Assembly: GCA_902795045.1 (NCBI GenBank)
Contig: CADBJU010000013.1
Location: forward strand, 1-64,000
Direction: 5' to 3'
Length of the DNA stretch: 64,000 bases
From: Oscillospiraceae bacterium
GTDB lineage: Bacteria > Bacillota > Clostridia > Oscillospirales > Oscillospiraceae
Under the pieces are notes generated by a model that searched no databases, was not told where the DNA came from, and saw only the letters and a list, made by a program, of their open reading frames with translations. Within the stretch, counting starts at the first letter, position 1; each line of letters starts with the position of its first letter. Of this stretch, positions 4,608 to 32,308 are shown in pieces. A program made the position numbers and the translations under genes.

Positions 4608-4656
4608 TAATAACTTTGTTATTCTTGCATTTTCAAGCACACTTATCAGATCATGG

Positions 4657-5751
4657 TCAGGAGATTTCAACCAGCACTTCCCAATGGCCGCTGCGCTTGC
4701 CGCCCTCGCGGCGTAGATAGCCTTTTTCCTGCAGATCCGTCATTCTGCGTTTTATTGTCCGTTCCGATTTACCAATAGCGGCAGCAAGCTCCTTTTGCGT
4801 GATGGCGGGATTTGCTATCACGGTTTGCAGCACGGCCAGCTCTTCCAACGTGCAATCCAAAGTGCCATTTTGGCACTTTGATATTTTATCATTGGCACTT
4901 TGAATTACTGCGTCTTCTCTGAAGCCCACATGGAGATAGCGATTCTTTAACTCATGCTGCGCGCCGAGAAGCAGGTTTTCAAAAAACATTTCGAGAAACT
5001 CGCTTGTAGCATGGATACCTTTTTGCAGATTGTTGTAGTTGGCTCTGACAAGCGCATTGCGGAAATACCATGAATTTGCCGCAAAAACGTCATTGTTCAC
5101 GTGAAAACCGAAGGTCTTCAAATACTTCACGACAAACACCGCCGTTGCGCGTGTGTTGCCCTCACGGGAAGGATGGATCTGCCAGATTCCGGATGCAAAC
5201 TTTGCCATATGGCGGATAGACTCAGGCAAAGAAATCTTTTCATAGGAGAACTGCTTTTCCTGCGAAAAGTCATAATCCAGCGTGTCGCGGATGCTCTCCC
5301 AGGAAGCGTATATGACTGTATCGCCGTCGAGTATCCACTCACTTTTGGTGATGTTATAGGTCCGAAACTGCCCAGCGTGATTGAATACCCCGCTGAACAG
5401 ACGGCTGTGAATACTCTGCAGCTCGGCCGGAGAAAACTGAAAGGTTTTCTCTCCCAGTAGTTCAGTAATACGCGCGGAGACGATATCCGCCTCCATCGTG
5501 CCATCTTCCACCGCTTTGCGGTTGGCCTGTTCTTTGTAGTAGCTTTGGATGCGCCGCTGCGCCCCGGCAATGTCAATGTCGCCTTCGATATGCGCCTTTG
5601 CGGTTTCCAACAAATACGGAGAGGTTTTCAGCCCATCCACAGCCTGAAGACCGATGGCCGCCTGCCATGCCGCACTCTTCTCGGCCCGGTCAGGCTCCCC
5701 CTGACGGATGTACTCGTTTAGTGCAAGCTGCCAGCTGTCCTGATTCGGCAT
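4657..5751 (-). CDS. Fic family protein with N-terminal VbhA-like and C-terminal winged-helix parts
   Basis: A 364-residue Fic (AMP-transferase type) protein. The Fic core motif is HPSREGNTR at residues 193-201; the usual HPF has become HPS, while the catalytic histidine and the EGN phosphate-binding loop remain. Residues 13 to 70 resemble the VbhA-type antitoxin segment fused to many Firmicute Fic proteins; the inhibitory S/TxxxEG helix is here LQAVDG, lacking the usual Ser and Glu, so strong self-inhibition is doubtful. Residues about 305 to 360 form a winged helix (TQKELAAAIGKSERTIKRRM), suggesting DNA binding or autoregulation. The ATG follows GGGAG at good distance. A complete promoter is visible upstream. 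Confidence 0.85.
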   Translation of the reverse strand: MPNQDSWQLALNEYIRQGEPDRAEKSAAWQAAIGLQAVDGLKTSPYLLETAKAHIEGDIDIAGAQRRIQSYYKEQANRKAVEDGTMEADIVSARITELLGEKTFQFSPAELQSIHSRLFSGVFNHAGQFRTYNITKSEWILDGDTVIYASWESIRDTLDYDFSQEKQFSYEKISLPESIRHMAKFASGIWQIHPSREGNTRATAVFVVKYLKTFGFHVNNDVFAANSWYFRNALVRANYNNLQKGIHATSEFLEMFFENLLLGAQHELKNRYLHVGFREDAVIQSANDKISKCQNGTLDCTLEELAVLQTVIANPAITQKELAAAIGKSERTIKRRMTDLQEKGYLRREGGKRSGHWEVLVEIS

Positions 5752-20482: not shown

Positions 20483-20721
20483 GGCGCGCCCGGCGGCAAA
20501 GCTCTGGCCCGACGAACAGAAATCATGTGAGGCCGCATACGAGGGTGAGACTGCCGAACGAGTCAAAGCCCAATAGCCGCACGGAATCGTTTGCGCCAGG
20601 CATAAGAGTGAAAGAATGTGTGAGTACCCGGGGAGGTCTCACCGGCGGCATGAAGTAGAAGACATTTACGATGAAAAGTTGGGATGAATGGCTGCGCCGC
20701 CGTTTTCGAATCCAAAACATT

Positions 20722-29560: not shown

Positions 29561-31843
29561 TTATTTCAGCTTGCTGCGGATCACCTTGCCGCTGGTGGTC
29601 TTGGGCAGTTCCTCCCGGAACTCCACAATACGCGGGTACTTATAAGGCGCGGTGCGGTGCTTGACGTAGTTCTGGATCTCCTTCTTGAGCTCCTCCGTGC
29701 CCTCCTTGCCCTTGACAAGCACGATGGCGGCCTTGACCACCTGGCCGCGGATCTCATCCGGCACGGCGCACACACCGCACTCGAGCACATAGGGCAGCTC
29801 CATGATCACGCTCTCGATCTCGAACGGCCCGATGCGGTAGCCGGAGGATTTGATAACATCGTCCGCGCGGCCCACGTACCAGTAATAGCCGTCCTCGTCC
29901 TGCCACGCGAGATCCCCCGTGTGGTAGTAGCCGTCGTGCCAGCAGGCGCTTGTCTCTTCTTCGTTTTCAAAGTATCCGGCAAAGAGGCCGCAGGGCGCGC
30001 CGTCGCCGGTGAAGATGCAGATCTCGCCTACCTCGCCGGCGGGAGCGGGATTGCCCTCGGGGGTGATGAGCTCCACGTCGTACTGGGGGTTGGGCTTTCC
30101 CATGGCCCCGATCTTCGGGACCATACCCACAAAGTTGCCGATGACGACGGTGGTCTCCGTCTGGCCGAAGCCCTCCATGATGGAAAGACCGGTGGCCTCG
30201 CGGAAGCGGTTGAAGACCTCGGGGTTCATGGCCTCGCCTGCGGTGGAGGCATGCTTGATGGAGCTTAAATCGTACTTGCTCAGATCCTGCTTGATGAAGA
30301 AGCGGTACATGGTGGGCGGGGCGCAGAAGGTGGTGATGTTGTACTTCTTGAACATGGGCATGATCTCGTCGGCGTTGAAGCGGTCGAAGTCGTAGACAAA
30401 GACCGCCGCCTCGCACAGCCACTGGCCGAAGATCTTGCCCCACATGGCTTTGGCCCAGCCGGTGTCGGAGATGGTCAGGTGCAGGCCGTCCGGGTCCACA
30501 CAGTGCCAGTAGCGGGCCGTGACGAACTGGCCCAGGGGGTACTTGCAGTTGTGGGCCGCAAGCTTCGGATAGCCCGTGGAGCCGGAGGTGAAGATCATCA
30601 TCATCGGATCATCGCCGCAGATGCAGTCCTCGGTGCGCGTAAAGCGGCTGGAGTACAGCTCGTACTCGGCGTCAAAGCTGCGCCAGCCCTCGACCTCGCC
30701 GTTGGTGACAATTTTGGTTTCGATCTTGCCGTACTTCTCGATGGCCGGAGCCGCCTGCCGGGTGCTGTCGCCGTCGGCGGTACAGATGATGGCGGAGATG
30801 TGCGCGACCTCAAAGCGGTAGAGGTAGTCCTTTTCCAAAAGCTGGTCCACCGCCGGGATGGCCACCGCGCCGAGCTTTTCAAGCCCGACCAGGATAGGCC
30901 AGAACTGCCAGTTGCGCCGCAGCACCAGCATCACCTTGTCGCCCTTCTTGATGCCGAGGGCGCGGAAATAGTTGGCGGCCCGGGCACTCATCTTGCGCAT
31001 CTGCCCGAAGGTGAGGCGCGTCTCCTTGCCGTAGCGGTCCACATGTAAAAGCGCGAGCTTCTCCGGCTGCTGCTCGCCCAGGGCGTCCACCACATCGAAG
31101 GCGAAGTTGAAGCGGTCGGCGTTTTCAAAGCGCACAGAGCGCAGCATGTCGCGCCCGTCCTCGATGGGGGTGATGAAGTTTTCGTAAATGCGGCGGCGCC
31201 CGGCCTCGCGCACGGCGGTGATGGCGGGCTCGGCGGCGGGCTGGGGCTCCAGCTGCTCCTCGGGTGTGAGCACGATGGCGTAGAAGTCGCAGTCCGAGCC
31301 GTTGGTGGCGATCATGCCGTGGGGCGTGGTGGAGTCGAAGTAGATGGTGTCGCCGGGGCCGAGGATCTCGGTGTGCTGGCCGAGCTGAATCTTGAGATAG
31401 CCGCGGATGACGATGTCGAACTCCTGACCCTCGTGGGTGGTGACCTCGATGGGGCGCAGCTGGGAGGCCTCGCTGAACACGCTGTGGACAAACAGCGGCT
31501 CCGCGATGCGGCGGCGGAACTTGTAGGCGAGGTTATAGTAGGTCATGCCGTGGGCCTGCTCCACGCGCCGCCCCTCGCCGCTGCGGGTGAGGATGTAGCT
31601 GGAAAGCCTGGGCGTGACACCCTCGATGAGCTCGGTCACGTCGACGTTCAGGATCTGGGCGCAGGTGTAAAGGAAAGCAAAGTTCAGCTCCTCTTCTCCG
31701 GCCTCGTAGCCCTGGTAGTCCTCCACCGTGATGCCGAGGCGCGACGCCATTTCCTCCTCGGAAATGCCGAGGATGCTGCGCAGCTCGCGGATACGGTCGG
31801 TGATCTCGTGGATCTTGTACTCCAAATCTGCCATTTTCGCCAT
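29561..31843 (-). CDS. XRE-cupin-AMP-binding acyl-CoA synthetase fusion
   Basis: About 760 residues. Residues 16-75 are an XRE-type helix-turn-helix (RSILGISEEEMASRLGITVE), residues 100-192 a cupin (HEGQEFDIVIRG, then GPGDTIYFDSTTPHG), and from about 220 a complete ANL adenylating enzyme: P-loop FTSGSTGYPK, GFGQTETT, YHTGDLAW, VGRADDVIKSSGYRIGPFE and the catalytic lysine in TTSGKVIR. The C-terminal part is of the medium-chain/acetyl-CoA synthetase-like type. ATG at 31843 follows GGGAGG by eight bases. A T-box leader with its own terminator precedes the gene. The N-terminal half is like the separate XRE-cupin regulators; here it may sense the acid or bind DNA. Substrate unknown; a branched-chain acid is a reasonable guess. 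Confidence 0.88.
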   Translation of the reverse strand: MAKMADLEYKIHEITDRIRELRSILGISEEEMASRLGITVEDYQGYEAGEEELNFAFLYTCAQILNVDVTELIEGVTPRLSSYILTRSGEGRRVEQAHGMTYYNLAYKFRRRIAEPLFVHSVFSEASQLRPIEVTTHEGQEFDIVIRGYLKIQLGQHTEILGPGDTIYFDSTTPHGMIATNGSDCDFYAIVLTPEEQLEPQPAAEPAITAVREAGRRRIYENFITPIEDGRDMLRSVRFENADRFNFAFDVVDALGEQQPEKLALLHVDRYGKETRLTFGQMRKMSARAANYFRALGIKKGDKVMLVLRRNWQFWPILVGLEKLGAVAIPAVDQLLEKDYLYRFEVAHISAIICTADGDSTRQAAPAIEKYGKIETKIVTNGEVEGWRSFDAEYELYSSRFTRTEDCICGDDPMMMIFTSGSTGYPKLAAHNCKYPLGQFVTARYWHCVDPDGLHLTISDTGWAKAMWGKIFGQWLCEAAVFVYDFDRFNADEIMPMFKKYNITTFCAPPTMYRFFIKQDLSKYDLSSIKHASTAGEAMNPEVFNRFREATGLSIMEGFGQTETTVVIGNFVGMVPKIGAMGKPNPQYDVELITPEGNPAPAGEVGEICIFTGDGAPCGLFAGYFENEEETSACWHDGYYHTGDLAWQDEDGYYWYVGRADDVIKSSGYRIGPFEIESVIMELPYVLECGVCAVPDEIRGQVVKAAIVLVKGKEGTEELKKEIQNYVKHRTAPYKYPRIVEFREELPKTTSGKVIRSKLK

Positions 31844-31866
31844 GCTTGTGTCCTCCCTTGAATGGA

Positions 31867-32150
31867 TAAAAAAACGCCCCGGAATAAATTCCGGGGACGA
31901 CGTAAACACATCGCGGTACCACCCCTGTTGCGTCCCGATGGGACGCCGCTCAGCGCTCTGTCAAGCGCTTTGGCTCTTACGCGGCTTCACGGGAGGCTCT
32001 ACTGACGCGGGAGTACCCGCGCTTTCTGCGCTCCGGCTCCGGAGTGACAGACCATGGGGCGGCTTCGCTATCTGCTCGCAGCTAACGCAGACTCTCTGAA
32101 AACCGGGCCGCCGGGCCCTCTCCATCAATGCCTTTGGGCTGTATACAATT
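31867..32150 (-). promoter_or_regulatory. T-box riboswitch leader of the acyl-CoA synthetase gene
   Basis: On the minus strand the T-box sequence GGGGTGGTACCGCG (plus 31912-31925) is followed by a terminator CCCCGGAAT-AA-ATTCCGGGG with TTTTTTT. Upstream is a stem I apex CAGAGAGTCTGCG...GCGAGCAGA, of the conserved AGAGAG/GCTGCGAG type, and helix GGCGGC/GCCGCC closing the specifier loop. The base of stem I pairs GGAG with CTCC; by analogy with glyQS the specifier before A-CTCC is GTC (plus 32046-32048), which would mean valine. The specifier is tentative. Uncharged tRNA would prevent termination and switch the gene on. Confidence 0.85.
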
Positions 32151-32160
32151 ATTGACAAGG

Positions 32161-32189
32161 ATTATATAATTATACATGCTGATTGTCAA
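32161..32189 (-). promoter_or_regulatory. Consensus promoter of the T-box transcript
   Basis: On the minus strand TTGACA (plus 32184-32189), 17 bases, TATAAT (32161-32166): both hexamers are perfect consensus. Control therefore lies downstream, in the T-box. Confidence 0.85.
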
Positions 32190-32308
32190 GGATTTTTTGA
32201 AGGCAATCGGTGCTTGTGTTGAATTTGTAAACAATTCCGCACCGCTCTTGACAGCGGCGTCGCGGCTTCCTAAAATGGGCAAAGCAATGAAAAGGAAAGG
32301 TGAGCGAC

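Follow-up and report, generated by a model that had tools for sequence, protein, structure and literature searches.

T-box riboswitches (Rfam RF00230) activate genes when an amino acid is scarce and its tRNA is uncharged. The leader described here has in common with them a Stem I with its specifier, the AGAGAG motif, the T-box sequence and an antiterminator that competes with a terminator, and a switch-on under starvation would follow by analogy. T-boxes have been described before branched-chain genes, for example leuA of Geobacter (main text of PMC2494555). Term searches of three main texts (PMC2494555, PMC3766115 and PMC7583486) found no acyl-CoA or CoA ligase gene. No earlier report of the T-box/acyl-CoA synthetase system presented below was found in the literature searched, which lay outside the main T-box surveys, and an earlier description may exist. 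As to metabolism, rumen bacteria convert isobutyrate to valine, 2-methylbutyrate to isoleucine and isovalerate to leucine, according to older work cited in PMC7356843. The substrates and products that we propose are the same, whereas the genes, their order and the T-boxes are proposed here, tRNA control being unnamed in the part of that paper that was covered. The closest solved relative of the enzyme in question is MacsMa, the medium-chain acyl-CoA synthetase of Methanosarcina acetivorans (PDB 3ETC), whose preferred substrate is given as 2-methylbutyrate in the part of PMC10455477 that was covered.

The window (the whole stretch of 64,000 nucleotides that was analysed, positions 1 to 64,000 of contig CADBJU010000013.1 of an Oscillospiraceae bacterium) carries on its minus strand a T-box leader before an acyl-CoA synthetase fusion. 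The initial annotation had read a T-box there, and the RF00230 covariance model bears this out with a full-length match (model 1-219) at 32137-31890, with 77.9 bits and E-values of 3.4e-17 for a 601-base stretch and 3.7e-17 for the whole genome, though the score is under the Rfam gathering score of 93, the curator's cut-off, in such a way that the leader does not appear in a default Rfam scan. Six of the eight T-boxes of the host genome are also below 93 bits, including the alaS and pheS leaders with their correct specifiers, and this may be one reason why such leaders have been overlooked.

The elements of the leader were located one by one on the minus strand. A sigma-70-type promoter (32161..32189), described initially as consensus, indeed matches at 12 of 12 positions, with TTGACA at 32189-32184, a 17 bp spacer and TATAAT at 32166-32161; three promoter-like sites were found in 31800-32300, compared with 0.4 in shuffles. 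The leader RNA extends from Stem I to the antiterminator (31890..32137). In the Rfam alignment, the Stem I helix beside the specifier has its 5' arm GGAG at 32120..32123, paired with CUCC at 32044-32041, and the model column that contains the specifier gives the codon GUC (valine) at 32046..32048. The AGAGAG loop motif of Stem I was both read in the sequence and aligned to the model at 32092..32097; it had been called the apex of the stem, and the motif itself is there, but not that position, as we take AGAGAG to be a conserved element of Stem I that lies next to the distal helix and is not the apex itself. The T-box sequence GGGGTGGTACCGCG (31912..31925) and a terminator ending in seven T, both also in the initial annotation, were recovered by Rfam alignment and by terminator search, respectively. 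The intrinsic terminator CCCCGGAA-TTTA-TTCCGGGG (31868..31896) comprises a hairpin at 31896-31877 and the T7 at 31874-31868, and is the only terminator-like site, compared with 0.4 in shuffles. The 3' arm of the antiterminator, CGTCCCC, is aligned at 31893..31899, and both structures use CCCC at 31896-31893, so that they are mutually exclusive. The leader thus combines a specifier for a cognate tRNA, the UGGN bulge that complements the discriminator base and CCA end of the tRNA, and mutually exclusive antiterminator and terminator, by which T-boxes are recognised, and by analogy with T-box riboswitches it would switch in response to tRNA. Its fold is better than that of shuffles (z = -3.87), the minimum-energy fold itself being without T-box structure. 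Elsewhere in the window, positions 20489-20622 of the plus strand matched Group II intron D1-D4 with 56.7 bits.

Downstream of the leader, a start codon at 31843 preceded by GGGAGG opens the gene (29561..31843, minus strand) for a protein of 760 aa with the Pfam domains HTH_19, Cupin_2, AMP-binding and AMP-binding_C. As annotated, it is an AMP-binding acyl-CoA synthetase, with PF00501 at 197.8 bits (cut-off 29.9) and PF13193 at 75.7 bits (cut-off 24.5). The nearest solved structure, 3ETC, is matched by residues 227-758 (E 2.1e-182), that is, by the synthetase part only and not by the HTH-cupin part. The best NCBIfam match is MbcS (NF047394), at residues 257-759 with 418.1 bits, missing the cut-off of 850 and leaving out the N-terminal HTH and cupin. 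In contrast to familiar T-box riboswitches, the leader precedes a proposed branched-acid acyl-CoA synthetase and not a tRNA synthetase, a transporter or a canonical biosynthetic gene. We consider it very probable that a tRNA-Val T-box here controls a synthetase that most likely activates isobutyrate for the synthesis of valine, with parallel circuits for isoleucine and leucine.

The isoleucine circuit was found in the same genome. A T-box at C10:38433-38198, with the specifier AUC (Ile), precedes a fusion (L039 7691-9985) that is 58% identical to that of the window, and opens a gene row on a single strand in the order T-box(AUC)-ACS-NTPase-ferredoxin-like-vorB-vorA-vorC-amidohydrolase-like-ilvE, which would be co-transcribed. 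VorB scored 534.9 bits against the cut-off of 399 of NF005507, and IlvE, a branched-chain aminotransferase, 445.9 bits against 307; the VorA-like and VorC-like subunits match under their cut-offs. The gene that separates vorB from the synthetase (L039 6810-7604, minus strand) encodes a P-loop NTPase for which no NCBIfam match was found at E 1e-10; it is a neighbour in many related loci.

To know how far this arrangement is conserved, named genomes were scanned. The matching stretches numbered at least 593, and the analysis retained the best 80 loci, whose names nearly all fall within Clostridia, many from ruminant guts. Together with the window and seven further loci, including the second copy of the host, these form a first set of 122 fusion genes above 700 bits, 22 weaker matches being left out. 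Among them 111 specifiers were readable, 66 of them AUC and 45 GUN (37 GUA, 6 GUC and 2 GUG). The 11 unread genes comprise six Val-type genes that come second, after an Ile-type gene, and lack their own T-box (L096, L099, L102, L108, L109 and L147), two genes in L118 that have no T-box, the genes of L078 and L124, with too short an upstream sequence, and a fusion with Gly at residue 464 in L152, preceded by a T-box (4624-4895) with a shortened specifier region and an unreadable codon. A covariance scan found no T-box for the fusion genes of L118 and L018. Most relatives have GAGTGG in the T-box sequence and not GGGTGG. Two fusion genes per locus were present in 32 of the best 80 loci, and in a FastTree tree from the same selection the Val/Ile label of the 111 read genes switches only twice: 52 rows, of which 8 are unread, make up a single Val clade, and the Val-type gene of L148 stands separately. 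Among the matches listed, 66 loci extend 2.2 kb or more downstream; 34 of these have vorB there on the same strand, and the other 32 do not.

MbcS has a role in membrane lipid synthesis, and its standing as the best NCBIfam match (418 bits), together with the absence of a vor gene beside the synthetase gene of the window, would fit an enzyme that makes a branched-fatty-acid primer from isobutyrate for membrane lipids, the Val T-box being real and the tRNA reporting a general shortage of branched-chain amino acids. We regard this as improbable: the match stays below the MbcS cut-off of 850, the paralogue sits in a row with vorBAC and ilvE, Ile-type and Val-type genes jointly precede vorBAC in many loci, and three T-boxes, each matched to its amino acid, would be left unexplained.

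In the host draft, which is 92% complete, ilvB, ilvC and ilvD gave no match at E 0.001, so that another route to branched-chain amino acids is needed; a leuA over its cut-off was not found in the host genome either, and two of the three matches below it fall in a LeuA-like gene described below. The initial annotation had suggested a link to reductive carboxylation of branched-chain acyl-CoAs, and this gains support from these non-matches, from the Ile T-box row with vorBAC and ilvE, and from the preference of the solved relative for 2-methylbutyrate. VOR is reversible in principle, and the oxidative direction is also possible, so the same genes could be read as degradative, with VOR oxidising branched 2-oxo acids to acyl-CoAs and the synthetase recovering the acids. 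This direction is very unlikely, as a T-box activates its gene under shortage of the amino acid, whereas a catabolic gene would have to respond the other way round, and as the unmatched ilvB, ilvC and ilvD call for another route to the amino acids. Among 11 relatives that carry the fusion at E 2e-288 or better, ten have no ilvC and ilvD over the cut-off and one (G049) has both. Absence of ilvC and ilvD was dropped as a predictor of the fusion, of which it is a weak correlate, because most genomes of the same genus are without these two genes and also without the fusion.

The assignment to valine was checked on other leaders of the host. In Rfam alignments the specifier is located as the three bases preceding 1 base, 5 bases and GAG, and the same alignment column gave GUC for valS, GCC for alaS, UUC for pheS and UGG for a trpB-like gene, all as expected from gene identities assigned by eye from the translations; a leader upstream of ABC transporter genes has UGG. 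These control specifiers are those of the Rfam alignment, as the specifier script misreads alaS (L004, best candidate below the threshold of 13). The host genome also encodes tRNA-Val(GAC) with discriminator base A73, which is complemented by the variable base U of UGGU in the T-box of the window. The specifier GUC, tentative in the initial annotation, is thus confirmed, with relatives carrying the synonymous GUA, GUC or GUG. The AGUA of the model on the 5' side of the specifier loop is absent from the Val and Ile leaders of the host (window and L006), leaving the register of the window specifier less firmly anchored, and yet a misreading in which the codon would be CUG, UGU or UCU is hardly credible, given that the control leaders yield the right codon in the same column and that relatives keep GU at the first two positions with A, C or G at the third, as a valine codon would.

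One residue of the enzymes, at position 464 (DTGW-A/G-K), tracks the specifier. In the first set, again within the best 80 loci of at least 593, this residue is Gly in all 66 genes with AUC and Ala in all 45 with GUN, and Ala464 is present in the 52 proteins of the Val clade, unread ones included; L148, which became Val-type by a separate switch, also has Ala464. A second set, partially overlapping with the first, consisted of 143 gene rows from a search of 394 genomes of the order. The script read 124 of the 143 specifiers, with 77 genes combining Gly and AUC, 46 Ala and GUN, and one Ala and AUC. Unread genes lay in 15 loci, and a covariance scan that covered 13 of these added two Ala with GUA and one Gly with AUC, read by eye, and found no T-box in 10 of the 13, so T-box control of the fusion genes is not universal. 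Without three duplicate rows, 125 of 126 read genes (140 in total) follow the Gly/Ala rule, and when only proteins under 90% identity to the first set are considered, 105 genes remain, of which 92 are read and 91 do so. The only mismatch seen is an Ala464 Val-type synthetase directly behind an AUC T-box (L207, 1150-1520), where an Ile-type gene may have been lost. The Gly/Ala rule has about three independent switches behind it and should not be counted as hundreds of independent cases.

More distant enzymes were compared at the same position. A non-fused synthetase under a GUA T-box (L169_4, 45% identical) has Ala. MacsMa (3ETC) has Gly, as the Ile-type enzymes do, in contrast to the Ala of the window enzyme, and the 4-hydroxybutyrate-CoA ligase 8biq has Ala. 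An aligned acetyl-CoA synthetase has the Val of GWVT there, which is presumably part of the acetate pocket. An extra methyl group in the protein (Ala versus Gly) for one carbon fewer in the acid would fit isobutyrate versus 2-methylbutyrate. The pattern at this residue and the specifier are what would speak for a preference for isobutyrate over 2-methylbutyrate in the window enzyme, a proposed isobutyryl-CoA synthetase.

Adjoining the Ile row of the host is a T-box reading CUC (Leu), which precedes a LeuA-like gene and then a fusion of an AMP-binding ligase to a xylose-isomerase-like barrel (L039 10656-13175, minus strand). The LeuA-like protein (L039 13172-14722 on host C10, minus strand) has HMGL and LeuA_dimer domains, and its start reads DITMKQLAKG, where active isopropylmalate synthases have DTTLRDGEQ; it is perhaps a leucine sensor without catalysis. 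In relatives, 17 leaders stand directly before a LeuA-like gene, 12 with CUC and 5 with CUG, and the ligase is itself directly preceded by a CUC leader in four cases. AMP-binding ligases under Leu T-boxes, mostly fused to the barrel, were also found in L157, L162, L164 and L165. The ligase of the leucine circuit is a candidate isovalerate ligase.

These data suggest the following scheme. The GAC anticodon of uncharged tRNA-Val would bind the GUC specifier, UGGU would be paired with the free 3' end of the tRNA, the antiterminator would form and the synthetase gene would be read. The synthetase would convert isobutyrate to isobutyryl-CoA, VorBAC, a 2-oxoacid:ferredoxin oxidoreductase, would carboxylate this to 2-oxoisovalerate, and IlvE would transaminate the product to valine. 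In the isoleucine circuit the Ile T-box would act before a synthetase for 2-methylbutyrate that is followed by vorBAC and ilvE; in the leucine circuit the Leu T-box would act before the LeuA-like gene and a ligase of its own, which probably takes isovalerate.

The codon-level evidence gives two acids, and tentatively a third, their own synthetases and links them to VOR and IlvE, in a scheme whose prediction can be tested with purified enzymes and tRNAs. Specifier codons can thus predict substrates of unassigned enzymes. The fusion is present in 147 of the 394 genomes drawn from the order, so the system may play a part in cross-feeding in ruminant and other guts. We lean, by a modest degree, toward a broader reading in which many gut and rumen Clostridia would have swapped de novo branched-chain synthesis for three tRNA-gated salvage circuits, the specifier naming the amino acid and Gly or Ala the acid that feeds it; tRNA charging would pick which cross-fed acid is activated, and the HTH-cupin part and the LeuA-like protein, whose catalytic motif seems to be lost, would supply sensing by protein in addition to sensing by RNA.
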